Shown piece after piece: positions 3,780 to 24,375 of a stretch of 30,502 bases of DNA. The position numbers and the translations under genes were made by a program. The DNA is from a virus, in the IMG/VR virus record IMGVR_UViG_3300001450_000040, positions 4,037 to 34,538 of that record, one strand, 5' to 3'. Positions within the stretch are counted from its first letter, which is position 1. Every line of letters begins with the position of its first letter. A model generated the notes under the pieces. It was not told the DNA's origin. It was given only the letters and a program-made list of their open reading frames with translations, and did no database searches.

Positions 3780-4103
3780 ATGAAAAACTTAGAACAATTT
3801 GAAAACCTTAATGAAAATAAAGAATCTGTTAACGAAGATTTTTCAGTAGATATAGGTGGTGGTGTTGATACATCAAATCCATTTTACGATGAATCTGGTA
3901 GACAGTATTCAGAAAAATTATCTCCTAAAGCAATGAAAGCACTAAAAGGAACTGAATTAGGTAGAGCAATTCTTGCTTTTGAAGATATAGTAGATGAATA
4001 TATGGATTGGAAACAATCAGCTCCAGGTGGAGAAGAAGATGATTATTTAGATGTAAGAATAAAAGGATTAAAAGATTCAATCAAATATCTTAATAGCATT
4101 TAA
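3780..4103 (+). CDS. Small acidic protein with capsid-targeting-like N-terminus; candidate head-internal protein
   Basis: The product is 107 aa. It opens with MKNLEQFENLNE, close in pattern to the ~10-residue capsid-targeting peptides of T4 internal proteins (MKTYQEFIAE type), which the prohead protease gp21 removes after (L/I)-x-E. Here LNE at residues 10-12 would fit that cleavage rule. The rest is mostly helical and acidic (EDIVDEYMDWK, GGEEDDYLDVR), with no recognised domain. It stands alone between two structural genes, has its own putative late promoter, and is followed by an intrinsic terminator, so it is probably a single-gene late transcript. The comparison with T4 internal proteins is established knowledge; packaging of this protein is inference. 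It could instead be a scaffold or decoration component. Confidence 0.6.
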   Translation: MKNLEQFENLNENKESVNEDFSVDIGGGVDTSNPFYDESGRQYSEKLSPKAMKALKGTELGRAILAFEDIVDEYMDWKQSAPGGEEDDYLDVRIKGLKDSIKYLNSI

Positions 4104-4175
4104 GTAAAGCTATTTTTTACATTAATGATACTTTTTGTAAAATATAGTTTACAAAAACAACTAATTTTAAATTTT

Positions 4176-4204
4176 AAAACCTACTACAATTAGTAGGTTT
4201 TTTT
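4176..4204 (+). terminator. Intrinsic terminator
   Basis: A perfect 11-bp stem (AAAACCTACTA / TAGTAGGTTTT) with loop CAAT is followed by a run of T. It lies 72 bases after the stop of the 107-aa gene and 3 bases before a late-promoter-like motif. The stem is nearly identical to the terminator at 9869-9896. Confidence 0.85.
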
Positions 4205-4207
4205 CTT

Positions 4208-4217
4208 TGATTAAATA
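4208..4217 (+). promoter_or_regulatory. Putative late promoter element TGATTAAATA
   Basis: This is an exact copy of the motif at 9899, 14709 and 22403. It ends 22 bp before the ATG at 4240 and directly follows the terminator, as expected for a new transcription unit. Confidence 0.6.
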
Positions 4218-4239
4218 AATAAAACTAATATAAAATAAT

Positions 4240-6333
4240 ATGGCTACACCACTATTAAGACCTTTACGCACACAAGGTGGAACAATTTATGTTTTTAACA
4301 GTGCAGCAAATGATATTGCAAAAACTTTTAGTGATGACAATGTTAGATTTACATTTAGTAAATTTGCGGCTTTAGATTTACCTAAAGTTAATCAACCAAG
4401 TAGTAATTCTAATAACATAGTTTGGCAAGCATTAGGAAATAGAGCAAACACTACAACATCAACAACTTGGAGTAGTAATTCTGTTATTACGGATTTACTC
4501 GGTTCAAATCAACAACAAAATACTTATATAGCAAATAGTTTTCAAAATTACGTTTTGAATTGGGAAAACTTAGTTCTCAATAAAACTAATTCAGATGGTA
4601 ATTTATACAATACAAGTACTAATCAAACCGTAACCGAAAGGATATTTTGGAAATGGTTATCCGATTTAGGTGCAATAAGATTTGATGATGCTACTTTAAA
4701 TGTAGATTCAAATGTTCCTAGTATGTACATAGAAGAACCAGAAAACCTTTCTGATTCCAGTAAAGATACGTATAATAGAGTAGTAAAATATTTAGGTGAT
4801 ATTGACTTAATCAACAATGTCAACAGAGGAGGAGAAGCATATACACAAGTTTACTTACATATGCCATCAGAACACGGAAACACACCTACGGTTTTGTTCA
4901 ATACACTCTCTGATAATAATTACAATCCTTCTTTGAAATGGACAGGGACAGGAGAAGATATTGAAGGTAGGACTGCAGCTGCAGACCCGAGAATGTCAAT
5001 CAAAGCATATTATGCTAATGATACTTCCGGTCAGAATTATTATACAACAGAAAATACATTTGGTGCGATATCTAATAAAGAAGTAAGGGTTGCATCCGAT
5101 TTAGGTTTTAGTAATAGATTCAATGTAAAATTGTCTAATATGGATGGTGCTGTCATTGATTGGGATAGTGCAAAATATACTAAAGTAACAAACAATGCTA
5201 ATGTAAATTCTATTTCAGAATTGAATTCAACGGCAGAAGCCGAAAACTTTTCTTTCAATACCGTATTACTTTATTATGATGTATTCAACGTATCAGACGG
5301 TTCGTTAGTAAAAAGAAATCTTTATGGGGTTTTATTTATTGATGACTTTGAACAAACTATAAGTGCAGGTTCAGATTTAAAATCATTTTCTAAATTTAAA
5401 CCTAATGCAATAACTAAATTAAATGGTAATGCATATTCATTAAAAACAAACATAAAATTTGATACAAGTGCCGATAACGTAGGTGTTGAAAGAAGTATAA
5501 ATGAGTTTTCGACATTTTCAATGGATTTGTTTTCGGATGCAATGGTTCAATTACAGGATGCAACAGAAAATTTTGTTACACAAGAACTTTCAATACTAGG
5601 TTTAAATACCAAAGTAGATAATTTAGAAAAGTTTTATTTCAATCAAGCAACTATTGATGAATTGAATGCAAAAATTAGTACATTACAAACTTCTGTACAA
5701 AATGCATTGATTGCCTTAGAAAGTCCTACTACTATAATAGAATTAATTAGAAATAATAGTACAAGACTAAACAAACTTGCAGCCGGAGAATTGTCAAGTG
5801 ATTTATCTTATGATTTAAGTCCTTTCGTACAAGGGGCTGGTTTGAAATTAGACAAGTCTGTTCCCGGAAAGGTAATAGCTAGTAATATAGTTCAAAAATA
5901 TAATTTTTTCCCTATATGTTTTAATAATTCGACAAATTTGAATTATAATGCTAATAATGGAACAGTTCCAAACGTAGGAACAAACCCGGTTAATAACAAT
6001 ATTATTAATTTAGGTCAATTTACAAATTACTTTAAAAACTATTCGACTGAAAAATTAAACATAGATAACGATGTCATTATAAATATAGATGATAGTATTG
6101 AAAAGTTTAAAACCGGACAAGTTTTTAGAATTGTTTTCGATACTAATTTTTCACTAGCGGACACTAGAAATCTTTACATATATACCGATGGTGAAAATAA
6201 AAGACAATTAGGTGCATACAAATGGTTAATTGCTAAATTAAATAATGTCAATTTATCCGGAACAAAACCTATAATTGAAATAATTTGTACAAACGCCAAT
6301 ACGTATTCATTTACGATTGATGTTTTAAGATAA
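4240..6333 (+). CDS. Tail/baseplate structural protein with central coiled coil (unknown)
   Basis: The 697-aa product starts MATPLLRPLRTQGGTIY and is rich in Asn, Ser and Thr. The first ~420 residues look globular and beta-rich. Residues ~430-520 form a probable coiled coil (DAMVQLQDATENFVTQELS, TKVDNLEKF, ELNAKISTLQTSVQNALIAL). The last ~170 residues are beta-rich again and end in SFTIDVLR. This globular-coil-globular arrangement is typical of trimeric baseplate or fibre-connector proteins such as the T4 wedge and whisker proteins, but I see no specific homologue. It is preceded by a terminator and a late-promoter-like motif and followed by the 1158-aa structural gene after 33 bases. There is no Shine-Dalgarno sequence. 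The assignment to the tail rests on composition and neighbourhood. Confidence 0.7.
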   Translation: MATPLLRPLRTQGGTIYVFNSAANDIAKTFSDDNVRFTFSKFAALDLPKVNQPSSNSNNIVWQALGNRANTTTSTTWSSNSVITDLLGSNQQQNTYIANSFQNYVLNWENLVLNKTNSDGNLYNTSTNQTVTERIFWKWLSDLGAIRFDDATLNVDSNVPSMYIEEPENLSDSSKDTYNRVVKYLGDIDLINNVNRGGEAYTQVYLHMPSEHGNTPTVLFNTLSDNNYNPSLKWTGTGEDIEGRTAAADPRMSIKAYYANDTSGQNYYTTENTFGAISNKEVRVASDLGFSNRFNVKLSNMDGAVIDWDSAKYTKVTNNANVNSISELNSTAEAENFSFNTVLLYYDVFNVSDGSLVKRNLYGVLFIDDFEQTISAGSDLKSFSKFKPNAITKLNGNAYSLKTNIKFDTSADNVGVERSINEFSTFSMDLFSDAMVQLQDATENFVTQELSILGLNTKVDNLEKFYFNQATIDELNAKISTLQTSVQNALIALESPTTIIELIRNNSTRLNKLAAGELSSDLSYDLSPFVQGAGLKLDKSVPGKVIASNIVQKYNFFPICFNNSTNLNYNANNGTVPNVGTNPVNNNIINLGQFTNYFKNYSTEKLNIDNDVIINIDDSIEKFKTGQVFRIVFDTNFSLADTRNLYIYTDGENKRQLGAYKWLIAKLNNVNLSGTKPIIEIICTNANTYSFTIDVLR

Positions 6334-6342
6334 TATTAAATA
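6333..6342 (+). promoter_or_regulatory. Putative late promoter element ATATTAAATA
   Basis: It is identical to 3751-3760. It begins on the last base of the upstream stop codon and ends 24 bp before the ATG at 6367. Confidence 0.5.
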
Positions 6343-6366
6343 AATAAAGAAAATACAATAAACGAT

Positions 6367-9300
6367 ATGTCAGACGTAAAGAATAGTTTAAGTTCAATTG
6401 TGGACAATCTTATAAAACTACAAAGAAATAATACTGAAATTTTAACAAAACTTTCATCAGTTGTTAATAGTGATTCAGATGTAGTAACATTAACTTTAGA
6501 AGATATTGCAAATGACAATATCAAAACAGTAACTATTCCAAGTTTCGGTGCCCTTAAAAAAGATATCGAAAGACTTGATGAAAACATAACTCAAATATCA
6601 GCATTGAATAATAAAGATGCTAGTGTTCAATTACCAGACGGTACTTTTAGAACTATTGTAAAATCTACACTAAAGAAAAGTGCTGAAGATATTACAAGCG
6701 TTCAAATACCTACTGGTTTTCAATCTAAAAGTAATTGGTTTTTCGAATCTTTCTTGAATCCTCTATTGTATGTTGGATTGAATTTTCCAGCACAATTGAA
6801 CCCTGATACAACAAAGGTTAAGATGCAAAAGTTTATTTTGAACCTAGATTCAGATGCAAAATTAAATATTTTCAATTCGCAAATTAAAAATAATCCTGAC
6901 TTAACGTATTCTAACTTTTTAGACATTATCAATTCAAATGGCATTTTATACACTATTGACGATGACATATTAGATTTACCACCAGTAGAACCTAGATTTT
7001 TTGGTAACTTTTCTGTACTAAGAGTATTCGAATCAACAGAAAATATCGTAGTTGATGGTGTCGATTCTACAAAGAAAACACAAAAATTTCAATTAGACAA
7101 ATTAACATATAACGATAAAAATTCTAGTACATTAGAAACTCAACAATTAAAGATAGGTGATTCTTTATTAGTTAATAAGAACGATAAAAGTACAAGATAT
7201 AAAGTTACTGGAATTGATTTTGAAACATTTACTATTTCTGTTATTTTGGCAGAAGGTTACGATTCAGTTAATATAGGAGCTGATAATTTATCTTTTTATC
7301 CTGTTGAGGCAATATCACCAGAAATTAGAGTTGGTATTGGATTCAATGAATATCTTTCGGTATTTTTAAAACCTATAAATCCAGATTCAAATAGACCAGC
7401 TGATAACTATTCTCCCGGGATTAGTTTCTATTCTAATGAATTGACAATAAAAGACACGGATAGCATAATTAAAACATTAGATACATATTACCAAGAAAAG
7501 GTAGTTGATTTTGGAGCTGTTTTATTTTCTATGACACAGGAAAATATTCCACCAGTTTCAAAAGCAATTGTTCCTAATGTTCCTGAGGCTGTAGCAAACG
7601 ATTTTAAAGTTGTTCAAATAAACAAACACGCAACGGATGGACAATCTAACGAAGATATCAAATCACTTAATAAAGAAAAGTTATCACTAAAAAGTGAACT
7701 AGGAGATTTAGATAAGGCGATTTCTACTAAAAGACAATCAATTTCTACTAAGAACTATAAATCAGATATTCAAAGAGATTCTGATGCCAATCAATTAAAA
7801 ACATTAATAGAAAAAAGAGCCGCAACCGAATCACTTTACAATTCAGTTGTTTCAGATATTCTAACTAAAGCAGAAGATAAAACAACATCAACCGCCAATG
7901 CAAAATATAGAGTTAGAGGTTTTTGGCCTTTACCTACAAATAGGATTGCATCGGATGGTTCAGAACAAAGTGTAATTCAATTTAAGATTGAATATAGATA
8001 TCTTACTAAAGGAGGGGCTGCAAATAATTTACAAGAATTTGACTTTACGGATGCAGACGGAAATACACAAAAAGGTGTTTATTCTAATTGGGTTTGCATG
8101 AAGTCTTCTTTAAGAGAAAGATTCTTTGATATAAATACTGGTAGGTATTATTGGAAAGAACAAAGTACAGAAAACGGAGAACAAGTTAATATAAATCAAC
8201 TTGACATTCCAATTAGACCAAACGAAACAGTTGAAATAAGAATAAAATCACTTTCGGAGGCTGGATATCCAGCTAATCCTATTGAATCTGAATTTTGTAA
8301 TATAGTTTCTATTGAATTTCCGGACGATTTAGGTATTTCAAAGGACATTTTATCAATTATTGATGAAACTAACAACGAAAAAGTAAAGGTTAGATTAAAC
8401 GAAGATTTAACTGAAAGAGGTGTATATACGCATATTGATGACCAATTCGTTCAAAATAGCATAACTTGGAAACATCAATCGGCAAATATTGCTTCTGGTT
8501 TTCTTTCTGAAGAAAGAAACATAATTAGTTTATTAGATTATCTAAAAAGTTTAGAAGATAAGATTTCATCTTTAGAAGCTCAAATAAATAAGACCGTTGG
8601 TATTTTACTTGTAAAAGTAGAAGACGAAGCTGGTAATCAAAAAATTATCCAAAATAATACTAGCACTTCAATTTTTGCTGGGAACTATAAAGATGAAGTT
8701 TCGTCTTTAGATGAACCTAAAGGAACTATAATAACTAAAAACTATTTTATTAGAATAGAAAATGAAGCTGCAACCCCTATTCAATTGTCGGCTGCACTAG
8801 TAGACAATAATGCATCAAATGATGATTTCGGTAGTAAGTTTGAAAGACCCACATCACAATATCGGAATCCGAGTTTAGGATTAAGTAATCCTTCAATAGA
8901 TGATTTGACTGCAACAGATAAATTGGCACAAAATTTACCTTATCAAAGTGCTCAAGTAAAAGGACAATTTATATATTCTAGAAATCAAGATATTACTGCG
9001 GTAAAAACTCTTTATAAGACTAATGGTTCGTTAACCAATGATTTTTACACATTCGATACTGCCTTAGTTACTGGAGCTGGAAATTATAAAACAGACAATA
9101 AGTTTTTTATATGGGATGGTACACTACCGACAGTTAGTGATATACAAGGGGAAGAGGTTGATGGTTTTACTTTCGCATCAAACCAAGTTTATGTTCATTG
9201 TCAGCATCCTGATTTATCCAATATCCCTTTTACTATAAGTCCAAGTGGGACATATCAAACAGTTGACGATTGGATATTTAAAAATGCAACAGTTTCAAGA

Positions 9301-9843
9301 AATGCTAACGAAAAAGTTGGTGACACAACAACAGCAACATCCTTTTTTGCACAAACTGAATATGCTAGAGGAACACTAGGTTCATATTCTGACATTACTA
9401 ACAAAATATCTTTTCAAGAAAATGATAAATATTTATTAGGTAAACGTTCTTGTGGAAGTTATTTATATCTAAGTCCTTTAAATTATGATGACATCAGAGT
9501 TGATGGGAATGATAAAAAAAGTAAAAAAGAATTACCTACTGGTTCTTCAAGTGCTGTTGTTTTACAAGTTGTATATCAATATAGAATGACTGATTATTTT
9601 GGACCTGGTAAGTTAGGTATAGGTAAAATATCAGGTGAAGATGGAGTTACTCAATTACAATATACAAAAATTTTAGGATTGGATATATATTATGATGAAA
9701 GTAAATTTTCTTTTGACCTTGAAGTAACATCAAGATATAAATCTAATTCTATTGGTACATCAGACGTACCAAGTTCATCGTTTCAAAATACTATAAATCA
9801 AACTACTAATAGTGTAAGTCAAATTACACCTACTATTTCGTAG
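6367..9843 (+). CDS. Large baseplate wedge-like structural protein with coiled coils and an FN3-like domain
   Basis: The product is 1158 aa. The N-terminal ~80 residues are a heptad-type coiled coil (SLSSIVDNLIKLQRNN, LKKDIERLDENITQIS). A second helical segment lies at ~430-500 (SLNKEKLSLKSELGDLDKAI) and a third at ~720-745 (LLDYLKSLEDKISSLEAQI). Residues ~515-655 contain a beta domain with fibronectin-III character (VIQFKIEYRYLT, then VEIRIKSLSEAGYPANPIES). The C-terminal third is beta-rich and ends in a Ser/Thr/Asn-rich tail. Size and mix of coiled coils with beta domains are as expected for a baseplate wedge component of a myovirus. A precise T4 counterpart (gp7 or gp10, for example) cannot be assigned by eye. 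It lies in an uninterrupted run of plus-strand tail genes and is followed by an intrinsic terminator at 9869. Confidence 0.7.
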   Translation: MSDVKNSLSSIVDNLIKLQRNNTEILTKLSSVVNSDSDVVTLTLEDIANDNIKTVTIPSFGALKKDIERLDENITQISALNNKDASVQLPDGTFRTIVKSTLKKSAEDITSVQIPTGFQSKSNWFFESFLNPLLYVGLNFPAQLNPDTTKVKMQKFILNLDSDAKLNIFNSQIKNNPDLTYSNFLDIINSNGILYTIDDDILDLPPVEPRFFGNFSVLRVFESTENIVVDGVDSTKKTQKFQLDKLTYNDKNSSTLETQQLKIGDSLLVNKNDKSTRYKVTGIDFETFTISVILAEGYDSVNIGADNLSFYPVEAISPEIRVGIGFNEYLSVFLKPINPDSNRPADNYSPGISFYSNELTIKDTDSIIKTLDTYYQEKVVDFGAVLFSMTQENIPPVSKAIVPNVPEAVANDFKVVQINKHATDGQSNEDIKSLNKEKLSLKSELGDLDKAISTKRQSISTKNYKSDIQRDSDANQLKTLIEKRAATESLYNSVVSDILTKAEDKTTSTANAKYRVRGFWPLPTNRIASDGSEQSVIQFKIEYRYLTKGGAANNLQEFDFTDADGNTQKGVYSNWVCMKSSLRERFFDINTGRYYWKEQSTENGEQVNINQLDIPIRPNETVEIRIKSLSEAGYPANPIESEFCNIVSIEFPDDLGISKDILSIIDETNNEKVKVRLNEDLTERGVYTHIDDQFVQNSITWKHQSANIASGFLSEERNIISLLDYLKSLEDKISSLEAQINKTVGILLVKVEDEAGNQKIIQNNTSTSIFAGNYKDEVSSLDEPKGTIITKNYFIRIENEAATPIQLSAALVDNNASNDDFGSKFERPTSQYRNPSLGLSNPSIDDLTATDKLAQNLPYQSAQVKGQFIYSRNQDITAVKTLYKTNGSLTNDFYTFDTALVTGAGNYKTDNKFFIWDGTLPTVSDIQGEEVDGFTFASNQVYVHCQHPDLSNIPFTISPSGTYQTVDDWIFKNATVSRNANEKVGDTTTATSFFAQTEYARGTLGSYSDITNKISFQENDKYLLGKRSCGSYLYLSPLNYDDIRVDGNDKKSKKELPTGSSSAVVLQVVYQYRMTDYFGPGKLGIGKISGEDGVTQLQYTKILGLDIYYDESKFSFDLEVTSRYKSNSIGTSDVPSSSFQNTINQTTNSVSQITPTIS

Positions 9844-9868
9844 ATGTACTTTACTAAAATTATTTTAG

Positions 9869-9896
9869 AAAACCTACTATTTCAGTAGGTTTTTTA
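9869..9896 (+). terminator. Intrinsic terminator
   Basis: A 10-bp perfect stem (AAAACCTACT / AGTAGGTTTT) with a five-base loop (ATTTC) is followed by a T run. It is 25 bases after the stop of the 1158-aa gene and 2 bases before the next promoter-like motif. It shares its stem with the terminator at 4176. Confidence 0.85.
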
Positions 9897-9898
9897 TT

Positions 9899-9908
9899 TG
9901 ATTAAATA
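9899..9908 (+). promoter_or_regulatory. Putative late promoter element TGATTAAATA
   Basis: This is an exact copy of the recurrent motif. It ends 20 bp before the ATG at 9929 and sits directly after an intrinsic terminator. Confidence 0.6.
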
Positions 9909-9928
9909 TTGAAAATAGATACATTGGA

Positions 9929-12900
9929 ATGGCAAAGGTATTCACAAATAAAACATCATATTCTTTATTAAAAACTAATCCTAAACTTACAGGAAATATC
10001 AAAATGGTAGTTGATAGTAAAGGTGATATTTTTATTGAAACTATTGATGCTAAACCAGAACTTACAAGAAACAAATACAAAAAAGTTAAATTAGACTTAG
10101 AAAATACTTGGTCTAGTTCAATTTATAATTTTTTCAATAAAGGTTCGATACCTAAATCACTTTTTTATGCAATAAAAGACGATGAAGATTTCTATTCTAT
10201 AAAAACTGATTTTAGTAAACAATATTATACGGATTATCAACAGGGAGTTAAGCCAAAAATTTCTAAACTGTACGATGAGCAAATTTCTTACTTAGCGCCA
10301 ATATGGTTAGAACCTAACGACATTCCGGAACATTTTGCAATTTTCAAGATACCCGAACCGGTTTCAGTTTCTACGAAAAATCAAGATAAAGATAAACCTT
10401 TCGATGAAGATACTGAAAAACAAATTTACAATGCAAACTATTTCGATACTTTCCCTGATGGAACAGGAGTAACGGGGGCAACTGCCAGTGATTATTTTTT
10501 CAATACTGTACTTTCTAAAGCAAAACTACATAAAGTTTTTGACTTGGATTCAGATTCTACATTAGGTAAGTATTTAAGAAATCACATAAATGATGCAGAA
10601 ATGCCAGAAAGTTCTTTAGATATTGATTGGAATATAAATTCTAATAGTACAGTAAATGGCATATCATTAGAACAAAGTGGTTTCGTAAAAAAAGCATTAG
10701 ATGTATTCGGTGAATCTTTTCCAATAGATAAAACAGTAACTGAATTTGATAATTTTGTTACAAATCAATTTCAAAATAAAGGAGTTGTGCATCCTAATAT
10801 AATAAACTTAGAATTTTTATTCGATGATGAAGAAGATGATGATTTTACAGTCAACAGATATTTTGGTGTGTATTTTAATAAAAATGACATATCTAAATTT
10901 AATTTAGATAGTAAAGCATTCTATGATAAAAAATACGATAATATAGAACAGAATAAAGATATCGAATCTATTTTTTCGGTTGATGCGCTTTCAGATTCTA
11001 ATATTGTATTAGAAAATAAAAAAGGCGTAAAACTATTTGTAGATTACGGTTCCGAATATAGCGTACCCAGTTCCGACATAAAAGGAGGTAGTTTTTTACC
11101 TTACGTATATTCAATAAGTGCCGGAGGTTCTGGAAATAATAGATTTTACGATTTAGAAAATAACTACGATTGGCAAAGTAATGAATTAATATTAAAAGAT
11201 AAATTTATAAACACAAGAGATTTCAAAGGATTTAAAAAAGATAGTGTAGGTATAATTCCTTCTACAAAAACAAATAAATCTGGTAGGTCTTATTTTGAAT
11301 TTAAAATTACAGGAACTATAACTTCATTTGAATTAAGAATAAAAGATGTAGATGAATACAAAGCAGATTTCAATCTAAATCAAGTTTTCGTAGGTGATGT
11401 AGGATTACCTAAAGGAACGTTTGTTGATAACAAGTTTTCTTTACAAGGGGCACCTGATGAAGTTGCAAATGCAATAGTTACTGCGATAAATTCATATTCA
11501 GATTCTGACGAAGATTTCAATATGTATGCAATTACTAAGTTTGATAAGGTTATTGTTTTTACTAGGGGAATTAACGAATATTGGAATAAATACAAATACT
11601 TGATTTATAGTGATGATATTAATTTTCCTAATGCTATTGAAGTACCTTATAAAACTTTCGGCAATCTTACAGATTTCAATACAAAAAGAGCAACACCTGG
11701 ACCACAAGGTTCAACAGGACCTGCATTTTTAGATTACGATGCCATTGTTTCAAGTGCTGCATCTATGTTTATTAGTTCAGATTTTAGTATCTTAGAAAGT
11801 AATTTAACAAACGGAAATAATGTAAGTGAAAATAAAATAAGAATTCCTATTGAATTTAGTAGTTATTTTAATACATCTTTATTTTTGAAAACTAAATTTT
11901 GGTATTCTAAAATAGTATCAATTGATGGATATTTAGATGAACCCGTTTATGAAAATGGTAGAATCGTAGATTTTAAAAATTTCAATAGTTATAAAACTAT
12001 AAATTGCACAGATGATATTTGGGTCTCTCCGGGAACATATTCAGAATTATATGAAATAGAAACTAACAAAGTAGGATTAATGTCTATGTATCCAATTAAA
12101 CAATTTGATGTTGACCAATTTAGAAGTGAATACGGAAAAGATGGTGATGGTAATATTGAAAAATTGAATAAACAGTATATTGCCAAAGCTGGAAGTAGTG
12201 CATCACCGTTTATAACTTATTATCCTAATGCTGCTAATATAGCACCTAATATAACTAATTTTAAAGATACTGGATTTAAAAGATTAACAGGAAAAATAGA
12301 TGAAGTAACTGGTGATATTCCAACTATTGATAATGAATACGATAGACTTTCAGAAAACGAATTGCCTCAATTGTCTATAAAAGGTAGAATTATACCTTAT
12401 ATTAATAAATGGGTTTATGATGATGACGGAAAAGATGTTAGAGAAAATAATTATAGAATGACTAGCAATAGTGCTTTTAGTTATGATAATTTTTCTCCTT
12501 CATCTAAAAATATTTTACCTGATTTTAGATTCTTTACTCACGAATGGTACTACCTACAAAAATATCCATATTACTTAACAACAAAAGAAAAGATTGAATC
12601 ATTTTCTTATTTTGAAAATTTGATAGAAAAAGGTAGTTATGAACTCGGAGCTACGAGCAATTTAGGTATAAAAGATATAACAGAAGATAAGTTTATAGAA
12701 TACTTTACCGAATATAAAGTAGGAAATTACTATTTTCCAGCAAAAAGAAAATATTCTATAATAAGTGGAGGTAACGAAGATTCGTTTGGTGAAACTTTTT
12801 TTAGAGGTTCAAAAATAAAATTCAAAAGAAGAGTTGAAAGTGATGTTGTATTAGATTCTAATATAGAAAACATAGGAGTTTTTAAAAGTGATGAATTCAA

Positions 12901-17700: not shown

Positions 17701-18544
17701 CAATGACCAAATTGGTGTAAAAAGTAGGGGTAATATTTCAACTGACCCTATTGATTATGCCGGTGATGCTGCTGGTGGATTTACACATTCTCACTCGGTT
17801 TCTGGTAAGACTAACTATACTGGCGATTTGGCTGGAGGTAATCCAGATGTTAATGACTATGATATAGACCATTACTATATAACAGGAACAGGATTCTCTA
17901 ATGCTACATTTGTATTGGCCCCACATTTTGCATATGATGTTGATGGAATAACAGGTGGTGGTACTTATTCTAATTTTAGTAACTGGATAAAATACTCACC
18001 GAACGATAACGTAGATAGTTCTGCCGGAGCTGTTAATGGTGGTAAAGCTGATATATCAGGACAAAAATTTATTACACCACCATTTAAGGGTACTATAATG
18101 GCAATTTACCTAAAGGGATTAAGAAATCCAAATAGAGGAAATAGCATAATAACTGATTTACATTTTGTCGGTGGTGTTCCGACATGTGGAGAACCAACAA
18201 GTGCTATCACAAACGCAGATATGTCTTGGTATTCCGATGCCAACAGCAAAAGGTATTCAAAAGTACATTCGACATCAGCAATATATTCTGATGGTAAATT
18301 TAATACTACAACAGGAGCGAAAACGAATGAATGGTGGGTTGATAATTTCTACGAATATGGATATCAAGATATGTCAAGAAATGATGATACTATGCATCCG
18401 TATTCATTTGTAGATGCAATAGGACAGAGAAACACATCACGATTAGATTATAATACGTATAGTAACACAGATTCAAGAAAATATACAAATATGCTATATA
18501 AATCTAACATAACAAAAGAAAATGATTTCGATGTATATTCGTAA
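14762..18544 (+). CDS. Receptor-binding tail fibre with collagen-like repeats and gp12/gp37-like HxH tip motifs
   Basis: The product is 1260 aa. Residues ~36-60 are Gly-x-Y collagen-like repeats (GPEGPIGPTGNTGVAGPDG), and a second short run is at ~112-125 (GPKGDQGVRG). The N-terminus (LTEKVNFNFDQLI) looks like a fibre-base attachment motif. Around residues 730-740 is a collar-like motif (YYMCNGAVL). Three HxH motifs follow: H944-R-H946, H964-S-H966 and H1009-S-H1011. In T4, gp12 binds zinc through a collar histidine pair and the gp37 tip binds iron through HxH repeats, so a metal-stabilised trimeric receptor-binding tip is likely. A conserved-looking LPNYFGRV segment lies before the histidine region. 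It is followed 3 bases later by the spanin-like gene. Host specificity probably resides in the C-terminal half; the receptor is unknown. Confidence 0.8.
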   Translation: MANIHIKELFGSDNITALTEKVNFNFDQLILAGGGPEGPIGPTGNTGVAGPDGRRGSQWVAGFGPTTINLPTDGVYRKNDFLLNDGGSFVGGATGQVWYYNSTTWVDSGINLRGPKGDQGVRGMGAIEFLPGLLQGSSFVPNYTNTTTTSLQPTISDYITQIIPENDQDDYDKGGVGFINAGVDFAAIGYGNNSLVLGRYATLFPTGTSGTHLEPPTGVLPLIGFPIQESNVPMLLVSQNDYQDPSGLNNTYTNGISIGLTKSHPDADYTLNDGMRGIPANYSRYSNISIENKHDDLKIATGYQSLLTLSASSNSTFFRLGNTIARTGQTLDARSTKLQTEQYTNFKIENTFFTDLSDISNNTSGKEFITNAQTTFFQNKKFYASDIDGSTNNDTRKLIAKTFIGSEDELDGGANELVFVNGDSLTTDADGKKISRSIDPTTTGTTPSDFNKRSMFDSNNRDFAFRIGQTTVQPGRMIGVNSNGTPNIDSNFANKINITYQGQGYDTPFIQYSGIDLTNTYNGSISSGTYEGYAAYAVIPNDSALEKVLGYDIKDPIGFSSTENKSGSRSMSRMGIYPGFFRKDKTGNVYIGDADARQKKFFDVAHRMMPTGSLDVFGTVRIREQETTDNGAKDGWIVVNKKDGILGFQDPNAASGTVGTALFSIIMFPEMASNKFSFYVESRQKFGASSTAVGDGKAYNYTNTVVPLPTGGTGRNYPFAAFPGKGSDELQDYYMCNGAVLADSRDIVATGPFSKMKGMNISAQNGSSKIQNGTPVPTSGITDFDYEVNPDFIGIAGQTHITSPQIPASAGTWSDFVVKYFNDKGSLRNSGGAWGYSVLAGADADSKFRVVLPNYFGRVAKMQFPDSDLVVRAISGHKLSQDPGIAGAYNATGYANGQARNNGYVYYGTNNKYNASWMMKGMFDSTGFPYLSGSQTPKMAMPKHRHTTGGDDPLITDSHLEPNHSHGYRGFNDVRKDNSNNDQIGVKSRGNISTDPIDYAGDAAGGFTHSHSVSGKTNYTGDLAGGNPDVNDYDIDHYYITGTGFSNATFVLAPHFAYDVDGITGGGTYSNFSNWIKYSPNDNVDSSAGAVNGGKADISGQKFITPPFKGTIMAIYLKGLRNPNRGNSIITDLHFVGGVPTCGEPTSAITNADMSWYSDANSKRYSKVHSTSAIYSDGKFNTTTGAKTNEWWVDNFYEYGYQDMSRNDDTMHPYSFVDAIGQRNTSRLDYNTYSNTDSRKYTNMLYKSNITKENDFDVYS

Positions 18545-18547
18545 CAT

Positions 18548-19336
18548 ATGAAAATAGGTAAATTAGAAATATCGACAAATACATTTATTATTGCTTTACT
18601 AGTAGGGGTTATTCTCCTATTAGTAAAATGCAATAATGATTCAAGAAATAATTTAGAAGCTCAAAGTATAATAAGTAAAAATAATATACAAGTACTTAAT
18701 GATTCAGTAAATTACTTGAAAGGAAAAAATGGTCAATTTATTGCAGAAAGAGGTGTTCTTATTGCCGATAAAAAAGATTTAAAAGAATTAAATTCTGAAT
18801 TGTATAATAAAATAAATGATTTAGAAGAATCTATTCCTAATCTTAAACCAAAAGTAGTAATTGATTATAAAACTAAAATAGAACACGATACAATTTATAT
18901 AAGTTCTGATTTAGAATTGATTAATGATAGTTCATATATTGTAAACTTTAAAAAAGATACAGTATATGATGAAAATAATTCTAGAAGTTTAGAAGGGGAA
19001 ATATCTATTGGATTACTTGTTGATAGTATTTCTAAATATAATAACGTAAAAGTTAGTAATGTAAAATTGACTAAAGACATAATAGATATGAATGCAACTT
19101 TAGTTTTAGGTACAAAGGATAAAGAATTGAAAGTTTGGTTAGAAAGTAAGTATCCTGGTTTTGAAGCTAGTAAAATAGAAGCTGTAACTTTAGACCCATC
19201 AATTCATCCTGAATTAAAGAAATTAAATAATAAAAAGTACAGTGTTGGTCCTTACTTTGGATTGGGAATAGGTCAGAATTTATATATCTTACCCACATTC
19301 GGAATCGGAATACAATATAGTATTTTCAAATTTTAA
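18548..19336 (+). CDS. Membrane-anchored coiled-coil protein with OMP-like C-terminus; candidate unimolecular spanin
   Basis: The product is 262 aa. Residues ~13-28 are one strong membrane segment (FIIALLVGVILLLVKC) after a short positive N-terminus, so an inner-membrane anchor with the rest in the periplasm is expected. Residues ~35-95 are a likely coiled coil (SIISKNNIQVLNDSVNYLK, LKELNSELYNKINDLEES). The middle is mixed beta. The last ~30 residues form alternating strands (YSVGPYFGLGIG, ILPTFGIGIQYSIFKF) ending in a terminal Phe, the usual end signature of outer-membrane beta-barrel proteins. Inner-membrane anchor, periplasmic coil and outer-membrane-directed end together suggest a lysis spanin bridging the envelope. 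This is inference. Cys28 is not in a good lipobox (Lys precedes it). It could instead be a cell-surface or superinfection-exclusion protein. It starts 3 bases after the fibre gene's stop. Confidence 0.55.
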   Translation: MKIGKLEISTNTFIIALLVGVILLLVKCNNDSRNNLEAQSIISKNNIQVLNDSVNYLKGKNGQFIAERGVLIADKKDLKELNSELYNKINDLEESIPNLKPKVVIDYKTKIEHDTIYISSDLELINDSSYIVNFKKDTVYDENNSRSLEGEISIGLLVDSISKYNNVKVSNVKLTKDIIDMNATLVLGTKDKELKVWLESKYPGFEASKIEAVTLDPSIHPELKKLNNKKYSVGPYFGLGIGQNLYILPTFGIGIQYSIFKF

Positions 19337-19345
19337 CAAAAGACA

Positions 19346-21763
19346 ATGAACGTATTTCTAAATTTAGACAGTTCTGATTTCTTACTCGAGTATATTTATA
19401 CAGATTCGGCAAGTCCAGAAATAATAAACACAACCAATGCACCTTTTTACTTGATGCAAAACGGTCACGATGGGAGTTCATTGTTGATGAATCAAGATGC
19501 TTATGGTGCGACCTCAAATAATACAAGAAGTCGTTCTGTTGTTCAAATTGATACACCATCAAAAGAATTTGCTCTTTTAACACCTAATAAATTAGGTGCA
19601 GTATATAATGACTACGATAGTAAATTAACAAGTACAGCTTCGTTACCAGTAACATATGCAGTTGGTAATACAGAAGGAATTCAATACGATACTGTTAGAT
19701 TACATTTTATTCAAGGATTTACCTTTAATGATTTTTTCTCTGGAATAAACATTGATATTAGTATCAAAGATAAAGCAGATAAAAAAATAAGTTTATTGAG
19801 TGCTATTTATAGAAGAGAAGATAATTTTGAAATAATGAATCCTAATCCGTTCTTATATTCGGGTAGACAATATTCATCTTATGTTGAATTTAAAATTCCA
19901 TCATTAAGATTCTTAATTAATAGTTACAAAGTTGATTATGTTCAAGGTGCGGATAGTGATATACTTGCATATAAAATTACAAACGGAGTAGGTTTTACTG
20001 ACAATACTCTATTAGATGTTAGTGCTGGTAAATTTTCAGATTTAAGAAAATTAGATAATCAAATTTATACTAAAAGAATTTCGGGTTCATCTACATCTAT
20101 ATCATCAAAAGATGATTTTGGTGATGTTGGAGTTTATGTTAATGAAAGCACAAGTGGAGATTTTATAGAATTTTATGGAACTTATAATGGTATCATATTT
20201 GGTGATTACATACAAAGTTTAAATAATAGTGGAATAGGTAATCATATTGCAGTACACAAATTGAGCATAACCGAACAATTACCTAATACGGTAGGAAGTT
20301 ATAATATTGTAGGTAGATATAATCCATTAACAAATGTGCCAAATTTAAGTGATAATACTTTCTTAGCAAATTTTACAACTGGAGATTACTGGGTAGCAAC
20401 AGAAACTGGATATTCTTCTCAGATAAATGCAAATGTAAAAAAAGGTAATTTTATTGTATATGACCCAAGTTTAGCATCGGCAATAAAAGTCACCGTTATT
20501 GATTCTTACGATATTCAAAATTATGCAAACATTTCTCAAATAATCAGAACAGGAGAACAAGAATTTATACAAGATAGTGATTTCGGAGAAGCAAATACAT
20601 TTAGACCGGTATTAAAATTCGGAGGTAGTGCATTATCTTATAAATTGAATTATACATTACAAATATTCAATACAACTACTAATTCTACTATTGAAAAATC
20701 AGGTTCATATGTTAGTTTCGAACCTCAAAAATATGGAAAAGAATTATTGAAATTGAATACTAGAGATAATATTCAAGTATTTAATGTGTTCAATAAAAAA
20801 CCAATAACAACAATAGTAAACACAAGTTCTGCAACTATTAGTAATGGCATAGAAAGTACAGATTTATATAGTAAAAACTTAACTGCATTCAAACAAGTTA
20901 AAAGTGTACATTCAGGAGTTACTGAAGTTAATATAGATTCGGAAGGTAAAATAACACCGAGTGTGAATCCAGATTCGGTAACAAATATACGAGGTCAAGG
21001 AACAGCAACCGTTTATATTTCACCCTTTGATACATTTTTACAGTTTTCATTATACGAACAAATTGAAGATAAATCTTTTAGAAGTATTGACTTGAATAAA
21101 GTAGGTACAATTTTTATGAATTTTACTAATAAGAAAGGTGAAATTATAAAAATAGAAAGTACAAAAAATAAAAATGTAGATGAATCAAAAGGTCAAGTTC
21201 TCTTTAGAATTAAATCTGATTTATACAATCAAGTTATAAATTCTGGAAATGATATATTTTTTATAACTTGTAAAGTTGGTAAAAATAGTCCAGAAAGTCC
21301 GCTATATACGGGTAGATATAAAGACTATGCAAAAATGATAGAAGATGAAATAGAATTATTAATAAATCAACAAAGGCAAGTGATAAGCGATTTGAATGAA
21401 AACGTATCAGATTTAGATAAAAGATTATTGATTTCAATAAAAGAAAACTTGGCTGCAAGTGCATCCAATGAAGAATTAGAAGCAAAGTTAATGAAAGTAA
21501 TAAAATCAAATCTTACTAAAAGCTCGACAAATAAAGAATTAGAAAGAAAATTATTAGAAGCATTATCATTAACTAAAATTACAAAAAAACCTGGTTCGAC
21601 AGCTAACGATAAAGCAATTGATGATAATTCAATGAATATAAAATCTAGTACATTTAATCCATATGGCCCAACAAGTATTAAAGGACCAACTAGTAGAATG
21701 CTCACACCGGTAACTGGACCGACAAGTAGAAGAGTTTCGGGACCAACTAGTAGAAATAGATAA
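19346..21763 (+). CDS. Structural tail protein with coiled coil and GPTSR-repeat basic C-terminus (unknown)
   Basis: The product is 805 aa. Residues 1-~640 are beta-rich, with the Asn/Ser/Thr-heavy composition of the neighbouring tail proteins. Residues ~655-750 are helical (IEDEIELLINQQRQVISDL) and contain an imperfect ~21-residue repeat (ENLAASASNEELEAKL, then SNLTKSSTNKELERKL). The last ~35 residues carry four GPTS units, three of them GPTSR (codons at 21665, 21683, 21716 and 21740), and end in RNR, giving a disordered, positively charged tail. No membrane segment or enzyme motif is seen. It is transcribed with the tail genes, starting 9 bases after the spanin-like gene. The position between the fibre and a tube-like protein suggests a baseplate or tail-tip role. 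The charged repeat tail might bind another virion protein or nucleic acid; that is a guess. Confidence 0.65.
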   Translation: MNVFLNLDSSDFLLEYIYTDSASPEIINTTNAPFYLMQNGHDGSSLLMNQDAYGATSNNTRSRSVVQIDTPSKEFALLTPNKLGAVYNDYDSKLTSTASLPVTYAVGNTEGIQYDTVRLHFIQGFTFNDFFSGINIDISIKDKADKKISLLSAIYRREDNFEIMNPNPFLYSGRQYSSYVEFKIPSLRFLINSYKVDYVQGADSDILAYKITNGVGFTDNTLLDVSAGKFSDLRKLDNQIYTKRISGSSTSISSKDDFGDVGVYVNESTSGDFIEFYGTYNGIIFGDYIQSLNNSGIGNHIAVHKLSITEQLPNTVGSYNIVGRYNPLTNVPNLSDNTFLANFTTGDYWVATETGYSSQINANVKKGNFIVYDPSLASAIKVTVIDSYDIQNYANISQIIRTGEQEFIQDSDFGEANTFRPVLKFGGSALSYKLNYTLQIFNTTTNSTIEKSGSYVSFEPQKYGKELLKLNTRDNIQVFNVFNKKPITTIVNTSSATISNGIESTDLYSKNLTAFKQVKSVHSGVTEVNIDSEGKITPSVNPDSVTNIRGQGTATVYISPFDTFLQFSLYEQIEDKSFRSIDLNKVGTIFMNFTNKKGEIIKIESTKNKNVDESKGQVLFRIKSDLYNQVINSGNDIFFITCKVGKNSPESPLYTGRYKDYAKMIEDEIELLINQQRQVISDLNENVSDLDKRLLISIKENLAASASNEELEAKLMKVIKSNLTKSSTNKELERKLLEALSLTKITKKPGSTANDKAIDDNSMNIKSSTFNPYGPTSIKGPTSRMLTPVTGPTSRRVSGPTSRNR
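21665..21754 (+). repeat. Tandem GPTS(R)-coding repeats
   Basis: Four copies of a GGnCCnACnAGT-type unit, three followed by AGA, encode GPTS, GPTSR, GPTSR and GPTSR at the extreme 3' end of the 805-aa gene. Spacers are 2, 6 and 3 codons. Codon choice varies between copies, so the protein repeat seems to be maintained. Confidence 0.8.
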
Positions 21764-21787
21764 GTTTATTAAAAAGTATTTAGTTAT

Positions 21788-22405
21788 ATGAGACACCTTG
21801 CAAGAAAAGATTTATTTTATATTGAATTTACTAAAAAGTTTATTCCAGATAAAATTGAAGAATTCTATAAACCATATGTAAAGAATATGCCAACTCAGTT
21901 GGAAAGTCCTAGAACTTTAGTAGAAAGTACTTTACAAGGTGTTACTATTCCTAGTTATCAATTTGACGGAGTTGAACAAGGTTTTGTTGATACTCTTAAT
22001 AAGAACGAAATAAAAACAACTTGGCGAAGTACTTTAAATGCACAAGATTTAACAGAAAAAAATCTTACGTTAACTTTTAAATTAATAAATGGATATGTAA
22101 ACTATTGGATTCTTTTAGATACTTTTTTCTTTCATTATGATATGAAAAATCCTGAAGCGTTTATTGGTGATATCACTTTAAGAATGTTAGATAATCAAGA
22201 AAACATAATGTTTAGTAGAGTATATCGAGATTGCATCTTAACAGGAATTAGTGATTTCGAACTTAGTTATTCTGAAAATATTCAGACATTTGAAACTTTC
22301 AACATTACTTTGCAATATAGTAAAGTTGAATCAACTTTTGCCAATCCAGGAAATCCCAATACATTTACCAGCAATCCCAGTAATTTTACAGGAAAGATAA
22401 CTTGA
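21788..22405 (+). CDS. Tail-tube-fold protein (tube or baseplate-tube junction), probable
   Basis: The product is 205 aa. The N-terminal part (FTKKFIPDKIEEFYKPYVKN) is helical. The core has the alternating hydrophobic pattern of a beta barrel. Near residues 125-180 the pattern ITLRMLDNQ, then MFSRVYRDCILTGISDFELS and QTFETFNITLQYSKVE matches the end of Hcp/gp19-type tube proteins, where a D.....Y.DC/N....G...LSY.....T.D.T..Y pattern is usual. The protein is close in size to T4 gp19 (about 163 aa), though somewhat longer, so it may be a tube protein or a gp48/gp54-like baseplate-tube junction protein. The C-terminal ~25 residues are Asn/Pro/Thr-rich and probably flexible. Its stop codon TGA forms the first three bases of the next promoter-like motif. 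No Shine-Dalgarno sequence precedes it. Confidence 0.55.
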   Translation: MRHLARKDLFYIEFTKKFIPDKIEEFYKPYVKNMPTQLESPRTLVESTLQGVTIPSYQFDGVEQGFVDTLNKNEIKTTWRSTLNAQDLTEKNLTLTFKLINGYVNYWILLDTFFFHYDMKNPEAFIGDITLRMLDNQENIMFSRVYRDCILTGISDFELSYSENIQTFETFNITLQYSKVESTFANPGNPNTFTSNPSNFTGKIT

Positions 22406-22412
22406 TTAAATA
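22403..22412 (+). promoter_or_regulatory. Putative late promoter element TGATTAAATA
   Basis: This exact motif copy overlaps the stop codon of the tube-like gene and ends 16 bp before the GTG start at 22429. It would drive the five-gene run that follows. Confidence 0.55.
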
Positions 22413-22428
22413 AAAAAAAGGATACTAA

Positions 22429-23457
22429 GTGAAGAAGTTTAAAAATATACGCAATCTGTTACCATTCGATACTTTGAATGAGGAAAAGAAAATGTCTTTA
22501 GGTAGGTATTTACAAGGTTTAAGAGATTTAGAAAGTGCGGCAAGGGATGAAAAGAATCCATTAGTTACAAGTAGAGCTACTAAAGAATATTATAATAGAG
22601 CTATGCAAATAGGTAATAAATCGAATCTTTTCGGTAATAAACTCAGGAGAAAGATAAACAAAATTAACAAAGAATTTGCTGTTTTGGGTAGAGGTAAAAA
22701 AACAAATATAATTGTTGCTGATAATATTGCGCTAATTCTAAAAGAAATTGAAAATCAAGAAAAATTAGGAATTTTTAATGAAAATGAATTTGCGGCAACA
22801 CTCGGTTCTGTTAATGGAATGGGTGCTGTTGAAATACCGGAAGTAGGTGGTAAATTAGGTAGTGGTGATGTGTTCGGTGGAACAGCTGATGATGGCGTTT
22901 CGGTTCAAGAACCAGAAAAGACTATTTCAATGAAAAAATTCAAAAAAGTTAAAGAAGATAAAAACATTTCAGAAAAGGAAATTTATATACCATTAAACGA
23001 TTTCGGAGACCCAGCTTCTTTAGTACAAATTTTAGCAACTGAATTATCAAAAGGAAATTCTGAAGACTTTTCATCTATCGTACCAGAATTAACTAAATTA
23101 GAAGTTAGTTACAACGGACTAGTAGATATAAAATCTTTAGATACTATTTCAAGAATATTAGATACTGATAAAAAAGTTCTAAAAAAGAAAATGGATAAAA
23201 TAATATCTAAGAATATTGAAGTATTAGAAAATTTACAAGTAGAATTGTTAATAAAAGTAATATCAGACCCAGAATCTTTAAACGAAGGAATAGTAGGTAG
23301 AGCATTGGGAGGTATAGCTGGTTTTGCATTAGGACCAAAAATTGGAAGAGCAATTGCAAGAGTTCTTGGTATAGAAAAAGGACCACTTTTTAATGTTCTT
23401 ACTTCAAGAATAGTTAGTGCGGCATTAGCTCAAGAATTGACAAAAAAATTATTTTAA
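22429..23457 (+). CDS. Candidate head-internal/prohead protein with targeting-like N-terminus and glycine-zipper C-terminus
   Basis: The product is 342 aa with a GTG start. An in-frame TAA lies immediately upstream, and AAGGA about 8 bases before the GTG is one of the few Shine-Dalgarno-like sequences here. Starting at the ATG at 22492 would remove the N-terminal peptide ending FDTLNE (residues 13-18), which resembles a capsid-targeting sequence cleaved after L-x-E. Residues 128-150 carry GMGAVEIPEVGGKLGSGDVF, recalling a GMG-V-P...GSGD motif I associate with small virion proteins of T4-like marine phages. Residues ~165-280 are helical and charged. After SLNE comes a hydrophobic Gly-rich segment (GIVGRALGGIAGFALGP, then KIGRAIARVLG) with GxxxG spacing that could insert in membranes. 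It could be an internal head, scaffold-related or pilot protein. The function is unproven. Confidence 0.6.
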   Translation: MKKFKNIRNLLPFDTLNEEKKMSLGRYLQGLRDLESAARDEKNPLVTSRATKEYYNRAMQIGNKSNLFGNKLRRKINKINKEFAVLGRGKKTNIIVADNIALILKEIENQEKLGIFNENEFAATLGSVNGMGAVEIPEVGGKLGSGDVFGGTADDGVSVQEPEKTISMKKFKKVKEDKNISEKEIYIPLNDFGDPASLVQILATELSKGNSEDFSSIVPELTKLEVSYNGLVDIKSLDTISRILDTDKKVLKKKMDKIISKNIEVLENLQVELLIKVISDPESLNEGIVGRALGGIAGFALGPKIGRAIARVLGIEKGPLFNVLTSRIVSAALAQELTKKLF

Positions 23458-23459
23458 TT

Positions 23460-23843
23460 ATGAAACCATTAAACGAATTCCTAAATGAATACAGAGACTA
23501 TGTTGGGGAAAGAAACATAGAAAGAAAAAAGGAACTTTTGTCTGCTGAAAGAACAATAAATGATAATAAACTTCTTAGTAAAAAACTTAAAGAAAAAGGA
23601 TATGTTGTTAGGGTTGATGGCCCTCTTTTTAGCAAAAGTGCAAGTGGTATGGACCGTATATCGGTTATTAACAAAGGAAAAGACATTTTCAGAATATTTC
23701 CACCAACGGTTCATAGCAAAGAATGGTCTATAATTTTGATGGAGGTAAAAAATGGATATATGTCGTATAAAAGGCAAAAAGACACTTATAATGAAAAAGG
23801 ATTATCTTCAGTAATAAACAGACTTATAAACTTATTAGAATAA
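23460..23843 (+). CDS. Small basic protein with capsid-targeting-like N-terminus; candidate internal protein
   Basis: The product is 127 aa and begins MKPLNEFLNEYRDY. The first ten residues match the layout of T4 internal-protein targeting peptides (MKTYQEFIAE type), with LNE at residues 8-10 fitting the (L/I)-x-E rule of the prohead protease. Mature residues are strongly basic (ERNIERKKELL, KKLKEKG, YKRQKDTY), as expected for a DNA-associated packaged protein. The central part (YVVRVDGPLFSKSASGMDRISVINKGKDIFRIFP) looks like a small alpha/beta domain with no recognised family. It starts 2 bases after the previous stop and is 10 bases before the next start, so it is cotranscribed with the 342-aa gene and the zincin. 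Packaging and any effect in the host are inferred. Confidence 0.6.
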   Translation: MKPLNEFLNEYRDYVGERNIERKKELLSAERTINDNKLLSKKLKEKGYVVRVDGPLFSKSASGMDRISVINKGKDIFRIFPPTVHSKEWSIILMEVKNGYMSYKRQKDTYNEKGLSSVINRLINLLE

Positions 23844-23853
23844 ATTAATTATA

Positions 23854-24375
23854 ATGCAATACTTATTTGAATTTTTTAAAGAGGATAAAAAGATTAAAAA
23901 ACACGAAAAACTTTTAATTGATTCTGTTATTGAATTTATGCAAGATAAATTAAAATTCAAACCTAATAGAATAACAGTAAAGAAAAAGTTTTCTGATACA
24001 CATATCGGTGATGTTGTACTTAGTGATGCATCTATAAATAAAGGTAAATTTACATTACATTTTAATCCAAATCAAGGTTATAGAATGATAATAGGTGCAT
24101 TGATACACGAATTAACACATGTTAAACAAATATCAAATGGTGAACTTAGACCATCCGAAGATTGGAAATCTGTCTTATGGAAAGATGATACAGAACTTTC
24201 AGTTAAAGATTATAAAAAAGCACAAAAAAACTACGATAACTATAAAAACCTTGCTTGGGAAAAGGAAGCATACGATAATCAAAACAATCTAAAAAACGAA
24301 TACATTTCTTCTAAGTATTTTAAAAATCTTAAAGGACAAGACGATACTTTAGATTTCATAATTGATAATATATGA
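23854..24375 (+). CDS. HExxH zinc metallopeptidase-like protein
   Basis: The product is 173 aa. Residues 82-91 (ALIHELTHVK) contain the zincin motif H85-E86-L-T-H89, with hydrophobic residues before it as usual for the active-site helix. Residues 135-140 (WEKEAY) look like the downstream glutamate motif of gluzincins, with E138 as probable third zinc ligand about 50 residues on. The spacing and the WExEAY pattern recall short SprT-like or M48-like phage and bacterial peptidases. The N-terminus MQYLFEFFKE resembles the targeting-like starts of its neighbours but lacks the Leu/Ile of the cleavage rule. There is no signal peptide, so it acts in the cytoplasm, in the prohead or after injection. 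Its last codons overlap the next gene by ATGA. The substrate is unknown; it could be a maturation protease accessory or a host-directed enzyme. Confidence 0.7.
   Translation: MQYLFEFFKEDKKIKKHEKLLIDSVIEFMQDKLKFKPNRITVKKKFSDTHIGDVVLSDASINKGKFTLHFNPNQGYRMIIGALIHELTHVKQISNGELRPSEDWKSVLWKDDTELSVKDYKKAQKNYDNYKNLAWEKEAYDNQNNLKNEYISSKYFKNLKGQDDTLDFIIDNI

Follow-up and report, generated by a model that had tools for sequence, protein, structure and literature searches.

The window analysed here is a 30,502-nucleotide stretch of virus DNA (positions 4,037 to 34,538 of IMG/VR record IMGVR_UViG_3300001450_000040); it is part of a 58,169-base record, the remainder of which was fetched as L001-L003. A sequence-only reading of the window had singled out four genes, starting at 3780, 22429, 23460 and 23854, and proposed that the N-termini of the first three share the layout of the T4 capsid targeting peptides, which the prohead protease gp21 cuts after (L/I)-x-E, with the fourth similar but lacking the Leu/Ile. 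All four starts are present at these positions, and the observation is confirmed, though with starts of unequal quality: the start at 23460 is canonical, those at 3780 and 22429 are variants, and that at 23854 is doubtful. The features of three of the genes are listed below, with scores from a position matrix trained on 60 family representatives of other contigs (maximum score 27.9); the gene at 22429 is treated separately.

23460..23489, plus strand: canonical tag MKPLNEFLNE, predicted cut after E10 (matrix score 26.1; also a strict-pattern match)
23460..23843, plus strand: tagged 127-residue protein, predicted alpha/beta cargo (AlphaFold2 model)
3780..3815, plus strand: variant tag MKNLEQFENLNE, longer than the consensus, with extra residues ahead of LNE (matrix score 1.7)
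3780..4103, plus strand: 107-residue protein with this variant tag and a second possible site, SVNE/D, at residue 19
23854..24375, plus strand: metallopeptidase-like protein (zincin) with the doubtful tag MQYLFEFFKE (DUF6782, E 2.2e-4)

Because a score of at least 1.7 with the identical matrix is also attained by 5 of the 694 genes of LR756500, the tag at 3780 is weak in this register. The start at 23854, which has F where L or I is expected before x-E, scored -1.8, and the GTG-started peptide at 22429 (MKKFKNIRNLLPFDTLNE, in which FDTLNE ends at residue 18) scored -3.1.

A search of the remaining record for further starts, suggested by the same reading, yielded nine more outside the window: MKHLCYFLNE, MKSLNEFVNE, MKNLDEFLNE, MKNLTKFINE, MKQLNEFLNE, MKQLKEFLNE, MKQLNNFLNE, MKALNEFLNE and MNNLKHFLTENESLNE. 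Tagged genes were counted with a strict pattern, M-K-x-L-x-x-F-L-N-E or close variants, in which E10 and a hydrophobic residue 8 are required and positions 6 and 9 are free; every gene count rests on a simple open reading frame (ORF) caller. By this pattern, 9 of the 59 called genes in the record are tagged (23460 and eight of the nine extra starts), which is an undercount by one because the caller missed MKSLNEFVNE (L002:968), and shuffling residues 2-25 of each gene gave a mean of 0.04 tagged genes and a maximum of 1 in 200 shuffles. When no motif was specified, F7 (z 6.2), E10 (z 6.1) and L4 (z 6.0) were the most enriched N-terminal residues of the record.

Relatives were found by their carrying at least one tag: a degenerate-DNA exact scan for M-K-x-L-x-E-F-L-N-E gave 26 stretches on 18 other IMG/VR contigs. 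Our census comprises 16 contigs, namely this record and 15 of the 18, whole or nearly whole (G004, G005, G011, G013 and G017 without their last 0.3-3.8 kb); G003, G008 and G016, each shorter than 10 kb and with one tag each, stand outside it. The number of tagged genes per census contig ranges from 1 to 17, the highest being in G013 (17 of 67 genes, null 0.03, all 17 in 39 kb). The 138 tagged genes fall into 65 families without similarity past residue 10 (BLASTP, E 1e-3), 32 of them singletons, and the families are the fair count, because some contigs overlap or are near-duplicates (G010/G014, G007/G009, G001/G004/G013). Columns left free by the pattern are conserved among the 65 family representatives (N9 in 56, E6 in 47), position 8 is L or I in 63 of the families (a hydrophobic residue being demanded there by the pattern), and A, G or S follows E10 in 41 of 65 families (background 0.168). 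Motif-free enrichment over 1,067 genes of the relatives placed F7, L4, N9, E10 and L8 on top. A scan for a Y4 version of the tag (51 stretches) was not counted, as it mixed real tags with a conserved 62-residue protein (MKMYIPFLNE and similar).

A shared start of this kind might be the remnant of recent gene duplication, if paralogues had diverged least in their first ten codons, and the frequent tandem arrangement of tagged genes (five consecutive ones at record positions 48361-50392) and the frequent dominance of one codon at a position are in line with this. However, the 65 groups have no BLASTP link past the tag, one cargo carries two different tags (MKGLDEYLNE at G004 30442, MKSYLDILNE at G013 11033), and some relatives elsewhere bear their own lineage's version, so that we regard duplication as very improbable. 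Alternatively, the conserved stretch might act as DNA or RNA, i.e., as a translation start enhancer or regulatory site, with the peptide being incidental; it is located exactly at the start codon and is rich in AAA, AAC and GAA codons. Against this, Leu 4, Leu 8, Asn 9 and Glu 10 are each encoded by several synonymous codons, other lineages keep other residues in the same layout, and the small residue directly past E10 suits a protease site; a role as nucleic acid is hardly credible to us.

Other large phages have versions of their own. With patterns written after viewing each genome, a choice for which the shuffle nulls are uncorrected, the PAU tag is mostly M-K-(T/S)-(L/I)-x-x-L-(Y/F)-E (19 of 315 ORFs; 18 of 289 longer ORFs, null 0.19), that of LR756500 has 13 residues, M-K-(Y/F)-(I/L)-x-x-Y-x-x-(F/H)-(L/I/V)-x-E (20 of 694, null 0.004), and that of pT24 is (I/L/V)-x-x-(Y/F)-(I/L/V)-x-E (11 of 307, null 0.19, with at least one, MLLSYFLKE, doubtful); PAU, PTm1 and pT24 were cut into non-overlapping 20-kb stretches, and genes spanning the cuts were lost. 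For LR756500, the strict pattern had matched 1 of 694 genes (null 0.51), and an absence of the tag was discarded when its 13-residue version was found. The 100 of 540 kb of Lak-C1 that were examined contain no version beyond the start MKSYKYFLNK and one doubtful pattern match. Related cargo proteins occur behind different versions: an ATP-grasp family starts with MKDYRQFLFE in G015 and MKFIKPYEEF in LR756500 (40% identity over 318 residues; the final L-x-E is missing from the latter copy), an ADP-ribosyltransferase with MKGLDEYLNE in G001/G013 and MLGLERYIIE in pT24, and two more cargo families pair with the pT24 starts MVNISEYLEE and MDVIQYLTE. For the family at record position 35581, the matches in LR756500 and pT24 are confined to internal segments of longer proteins. 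Judged by these sequences, each tag-bearing phage lineage evidently uses its own tag version. In PAU, four of the five proteins noted as 'internal capsid protein' (gp142, gp154, gp199 and gp270) carry the PAU tag (p=4.6e-5, the chance given 19 tagged of 315 ORFs; the notes are those of the depositors of NC_019521, whose basis we have not seen), and gp152, noted as 'scaffolding', is tagged, too.

The head genes of the relatives provide the context for such a tag. PF03420, the gp21-type protease family, scored above cut-off for LR756500 and for 7 of the 18 tag contigs, and of the six named phages tested, five have it, among them T4 (gp21, E 4e-113); among the controls for the 58-kb record, 14 genomes gave no match at first, by which absence is not shown, and later a single one below cut-off. 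In G015, PHROGs name the gene order portal (phrog_213, 3.4e-61), head maturation protease (phrog_207, 3.6e-40) and major capsid protein (phrog_138, major head protein, 2.9e-35), and the order is the same by sequence in the other contigs compared (the capsid gene of G009 being uncalled). These head genes, and the tail tube, gp32 and primase genes in the window, place the group in the T4 superfamily. The protease domain forms the first part of a protein of 541-657 residues (632 in LR756500), the remainder of which is repetitive and coiled-coil-like (long frames at L079:6043-7674, L090:4907-6880, L009:30725-32623 and others); the corresponding frames have 531-597 residues in PTm1, Lak-C1 and pT24 and just 254 in PAU. 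Because the remainder is coiled-coil-like and placed where T4 has gp21-gp22, the head protease of the group, a gp21-family member, probably forms a fusion with its scaffold. VNE/S or VNE/A is conserved after the catalytic domain in all seven aligned proteases. A second, sub-threshold PF03420 match (E 2.5e-4) lies in a 135-residue frame of LR756500.1 (154951-155127) and may represent a divergent second copy of the protease.

The capsid protein belongs to the gp23 type and matched 74 phage records, cyanophages among them; in the 58-kb record itself, a capsid gene was not recognised. In five relatives, the capsid protein has LNE at the expected propeptide boundary, where the segment ENNx(Y/F)A..SVNGMGAV starts. 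For the PAU capsid protein, PMC5646251 gives, from N-terminal sequencing, a mature length of 520 of 585 residues, and its sequence near the processed end reads ALME64-N65-Y66.

According to the review PMC9026906, IPI, IPII, IPIII and Alt of T4 bear capsid targeting sequences (Mullaney and Black 1996), the ten N-terminal residues of IPIII are enough to load a protein into the head, residues 4 and 7 serve targeting and 8 and 10 processing, and Asp at position 10 stops processing but not targeting. PMC9391042 states that IPI blocks a restriction enzyme and that infection of one E. coli strain requires IPIII, for which an anti-defence role is assumed. With the same pattern, the T4 control (282 ORFs) gave two MKTYQEFIAE proteins (100 and 193 residues), gp61.1 and one likely false match. 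Common to T4 and the group are a tag of about 10 N-terminal residues (7 in Alt) with hydrophobic or aromatic residues at 4 and 7 and (L/I)-x-E at 8-10, a gp21-family protease (here seen in relatives of the record), small variable cargo and an ADP-ribosyltransferase among the cargo (Alt in T4, ART-PolyVal here). Unlike in T4, carriers are more numerous (9 in the 58-kb record and up to 17 in 39 kb of G013, with 1 on some contigs), the tag sequence is lineage-specific, the cargo contains internal candidate cut sites, and the protease continues into a coiled-coil-like region. PAU has the same tag layout and many carriers near the protease and capsid genes, but its tag is one residue shorter, and its short protease frame is followed by a gene noted as scaffolding. 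The inner-head and ejection proteins of phiKZ and SPN3US are likewise many packaged proteins processed by a prohead protease; however, their propeptides are mostly far longer (>100 residues in gp50, gp53 and gp54 of SPN3US), and phiKZ cut sites are of types such as SQE, as described in PMC5694885. An ADP-ribosyltransferase domain of the class described for polyvalent proteins in PMC5512222 (PF18760) is tagged cargo here, whereas most domains in our set are separate tagged proteins and not parts of a single long polypeptide. In titles and abstract openings, our literature search met no account of a comparable set of tags for large phages of the Bacteroidota type. We regard the set as a new, much enlarged form of the already known T4 kind of tag.

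The tag layout is the same as in T4, and the same pathway is therefore the best reading: the shared start is very likely a capsid-targeting propeptide of fast-changing packaged cargo, with cleavage after (L/I)-x-E as the head matures. T4-style targeting peptides cut by a gp21-like protease, as proposed in the sequence-only reading, are supported by most of our computational tests, i.e., by the unrelated carriers, the conservation at the amino-acid level, PF03420 in the head cluster of the relatives, LNE in five of their capsid proteins and the match to the noted PAU proteins. The tag could instead be an address for a compartment other than the head (a phage nucleus, replication body or membrane), and the few cargo proteins with Pfam matches do resemble enzymes and not structural proteins. 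Yet it ends in the prohead protease motif, which recurs at the expected capsid-protein boundary, it marks most of the noted PAU internal capsid proteins, and a ten-residue tag is sufficient for head loading in T4, according to PMC9026906; another destination thus seems very unlikely.

Several observations weigh against head targeting and cutting. The 58-kb record gave no PF03420 match, but it breaks off short of the locus in question: it ends 0.7 kb past a gene that in G009 sits 3.7 kb upstream of the protease gene, and a PF03420 gene is accordingly predicted some 3 kb past its end. The gp21-like protease asked after in the sequence-only reading is known from the syntenic relatives G009 and G012. 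The family is also unmatched in 11 of the 18 tag contigs (possibly fragments) and in MaF61, and by the patterns tried no tag version was seen in MaF61 or PTm1. At the aligned place, the LR756500 capsid protein has HLNP and not LNE, and the published mature length of the PAU capsid protein is one residue off the predicted cut. PAU gp70, noted as 'internal capsid protein', is untagged, as are the 'internal capsid vertex protein' subunits gp1 and gp10, which lowers the inclusive count to 4 of 7 (p=3e-4). LR_254760 retains the targeting half without L-x-E, LR_143130, LR_265261 and PAU_L120_10052 are untagged relatives of tagged proteins, and most cargo families are without known function.

If head targeting is correct, the roughly 10 residues M-K-x-hydrophobic-x-x-F-(L/I)-N-E would bind the scaffold or core during prohead assembly, and each tagged protein would thereby be co-assembled into the head. 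The head protease would then cut after (L/I)-x-E and leave the mature cargo in the head beside the DNA; this cargo would comprise dozens of fast-changing families, some with multiple domains linked through internal cut sites, and would be ejected with the DNA, probably acting early on host functions or defences. For the phage of this record, we infer targeting, cutting, packaging and injection by analogy with T4.

Among the 65 representatives, Pfam matched ART-PolyVal (3.1e-20), DUF5824, a GNAT acetyltransferase (2e-10) and an R2K ATP-grasp (3.8e-6), each family being matched by one representative; a HAD-like match is weak and below cut-off. The tagged genes show lower conservation than adjacent genes. 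In the block shared with G012, the nine tagged genes have identity-times-coverage values of 0, 0, 0, 48, 51, 60, 83, 86 and 99, whereas 22 of the 29 untagged genes lie above 87 (tagged lower, one-sided rank test, p=0.0015). Internal phi-N-E sites number 2.31 per 1000 residues in tagged and 0.83 in untagged proteins (uncorrected for shared ancestry), and for six control motifs the excess in tagged proteins is much smaller or nil. The same domain may follow an internal site in one phage and a tag in another: ..SINE/GFESEGKSLK in this record, G009 and G011 corresponds to MKALNEFLNE/GFESEGKSLK in G012, and ..EMNE/GKQ(K/R)DMNN in G001/G013 to MKPLNEFLNE/GKQRDMNN in G004. Modules bounded by cut sites would give this picture; such swaps could arise by deletion between repeats as well. 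Two tagged proteins of 450 and 449 residues (L070:17762-19114 and L092:3106-4455) have a second in-frame MKALNEFLNE near residue 311, which might serve as an internal start or as the cut site between two joined cargo proteins. A 908-residue protein (L002:5503-8229; record 39502-42228) with a cytidylyltransferase-like N-terminus (phrog_395, E 2e-6) shows, by eye, several LNE/MNE/INE sites between apparent domains and is possibly a polyprotein of head cargo.

The gene at 22429 has a different character, and its features, together with the gene directly upstream, are the following.

21788..22405, plus strand: tail tube protein, directly upstream of 22429 (phrog_45, E 4e-9)
22429..22482, plus strand: candidate for a longer N-terminal propeptide ending in FDTLNE (FDxLNE in four close homologues)
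22429..23457, plus strand: 342-residue probable head-core protein with three candidate cut sites, FDTLNE/E, GIFNE/N and ESLNE/G
22726..22872, plus strand: segment with homology to the major capsid protein's N-arm in the region of the expected cut (NENEFAATLGSVNGMGAVEIP..GSGD; BLASTP)
23287..23454, plus strand: C-terminal glycine-rich helical segment past a conserved LNE/GI site (alignment)

FDxLNE is kept, amid varying neighbours, in all four close homologues (83-89% identical, two of them mutually identical; three aligned), and is lacking in a distant one (42-47%; G014 and, identically, G002). Residues 100-148 match the N-arm of capsid proteins from six contigs (two identical; BLASTP E 5e-7 to 1.7e-4), and the arm copy spans a candidate cut site and GSVNGMGAV..GSGD; by motif scan, the distant homologue retains the VNGMG and GSGD parts. 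L284, N285, E286, G287 and I288 are invariant across five aligned sequences, and the C-terminal segment has a match in LR756500 (E 7e-9) and weak ones in Lak phages (E 0.01-0.1). The AlphaFold2 model is uninformative, with a pLDDT (predicted local distance difference test) of 38. The sequence-only reading had counted this protein among possible effectors; it looks more like a processed core protein, and the arm copy could anchor it to the shell or serve as a decoy substrate. T4 has a comparable protein: the hypothetical protein gp61.1 (NC_000866.4, 18966-19130) is tagged (MKTFKEFIKE) and continues with a copy of the gp23 N-arm, matching gp23 residues 57-93 (BLASTP E 1e-6; phmmer 1e-5 among 282 T4 ORFs), and a vibriophage protein is listed as 'gp61.1 conserved hypothetical' in PMC3468402. 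BPT24_102 of pT24 (61 residues) is a merely possible third case, because its match to the 22429 family is weak (E 0.002) and that to its own capsid protein is nil (E 4.1).

These results could be extended to a broader proposal, which we hold to be about equally likely to stand or fall: a T4-related branch of large phages would run an open head-loading address code, with a short N-terminal version proper to each lineage, such that any gene acquiring it becomes virion cargo. This cargo, with tens of families (among them ADP-ribosyltransferase, ATP-grasp and acetyltransferase types, and proteins of several domains cut apart in the head), would turn over faster than the remaining genome, and in parallel, the capsid N-arm copies (22429, T4 gp61.1 and perhaps BPT24_102) would form an unrecognised class of head-core proteins.

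The known passengers of T4 are three small internal proteins and Alt. As the tag resembles the T4 head-loading label, a large and changeable protein cargo is probably carried into the hosts of these phages. A tag marking passengers in uncultured large phages would make injected virion proteins findable by sequence search, the 65 families would be candidates for first-response anti-defence or host-takeover proteins, and the lineage-specific versions lead to the testable prediction that tag, scaffold and protease co-evolve. The known hosts of the closest named phages are Prevotella, Tenacibaculum, Chryseobacterium, Flavobacterium and a strain labelled Sphingomonas. A host assignment from a scan of genome contigs (four stretches, including one on a Flavobacterium contig and one on a Prevotellaceae metagenome-assembled genome contig) was rejected, the gene matches to the group being merely scattered.

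Regarding the individual proteins of the window, the product of 23460 has no Pfam match up to E 1 and a single weak PHROG match (E 0.11). Its best AlphaFold2 model, built from three sequences, has a mean pLDDT of 85 (the five models span 54-85), and against the Protein Data Bank (PDB), no fold match was obtained at E 1e-3; the best one, YkuJ (E 0.41), was not counted as evidence. The gene is missing from G012, though both flanking genes are present there, with identities of 87% and 99%. The gene at 3780 has no homologue among the fetched contig set, and its product has no PHROG match and one sub-threshold Pfam match (E 0.17). The DUF6782 match of the zincin is under the curated cut-off, and its homologues are uninformative on the tag because they are 96.5-98.8% identical. 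Directly after the zincin gene lies a gene for a recombination endonuclease VII family protein (24372-24881; phrog_423, E 5e-28), and at 25109-25585 a protein that by eye is a guanylate-kinase-like P-loop protein is encoded on the minus strand, amid plus-strand genes.

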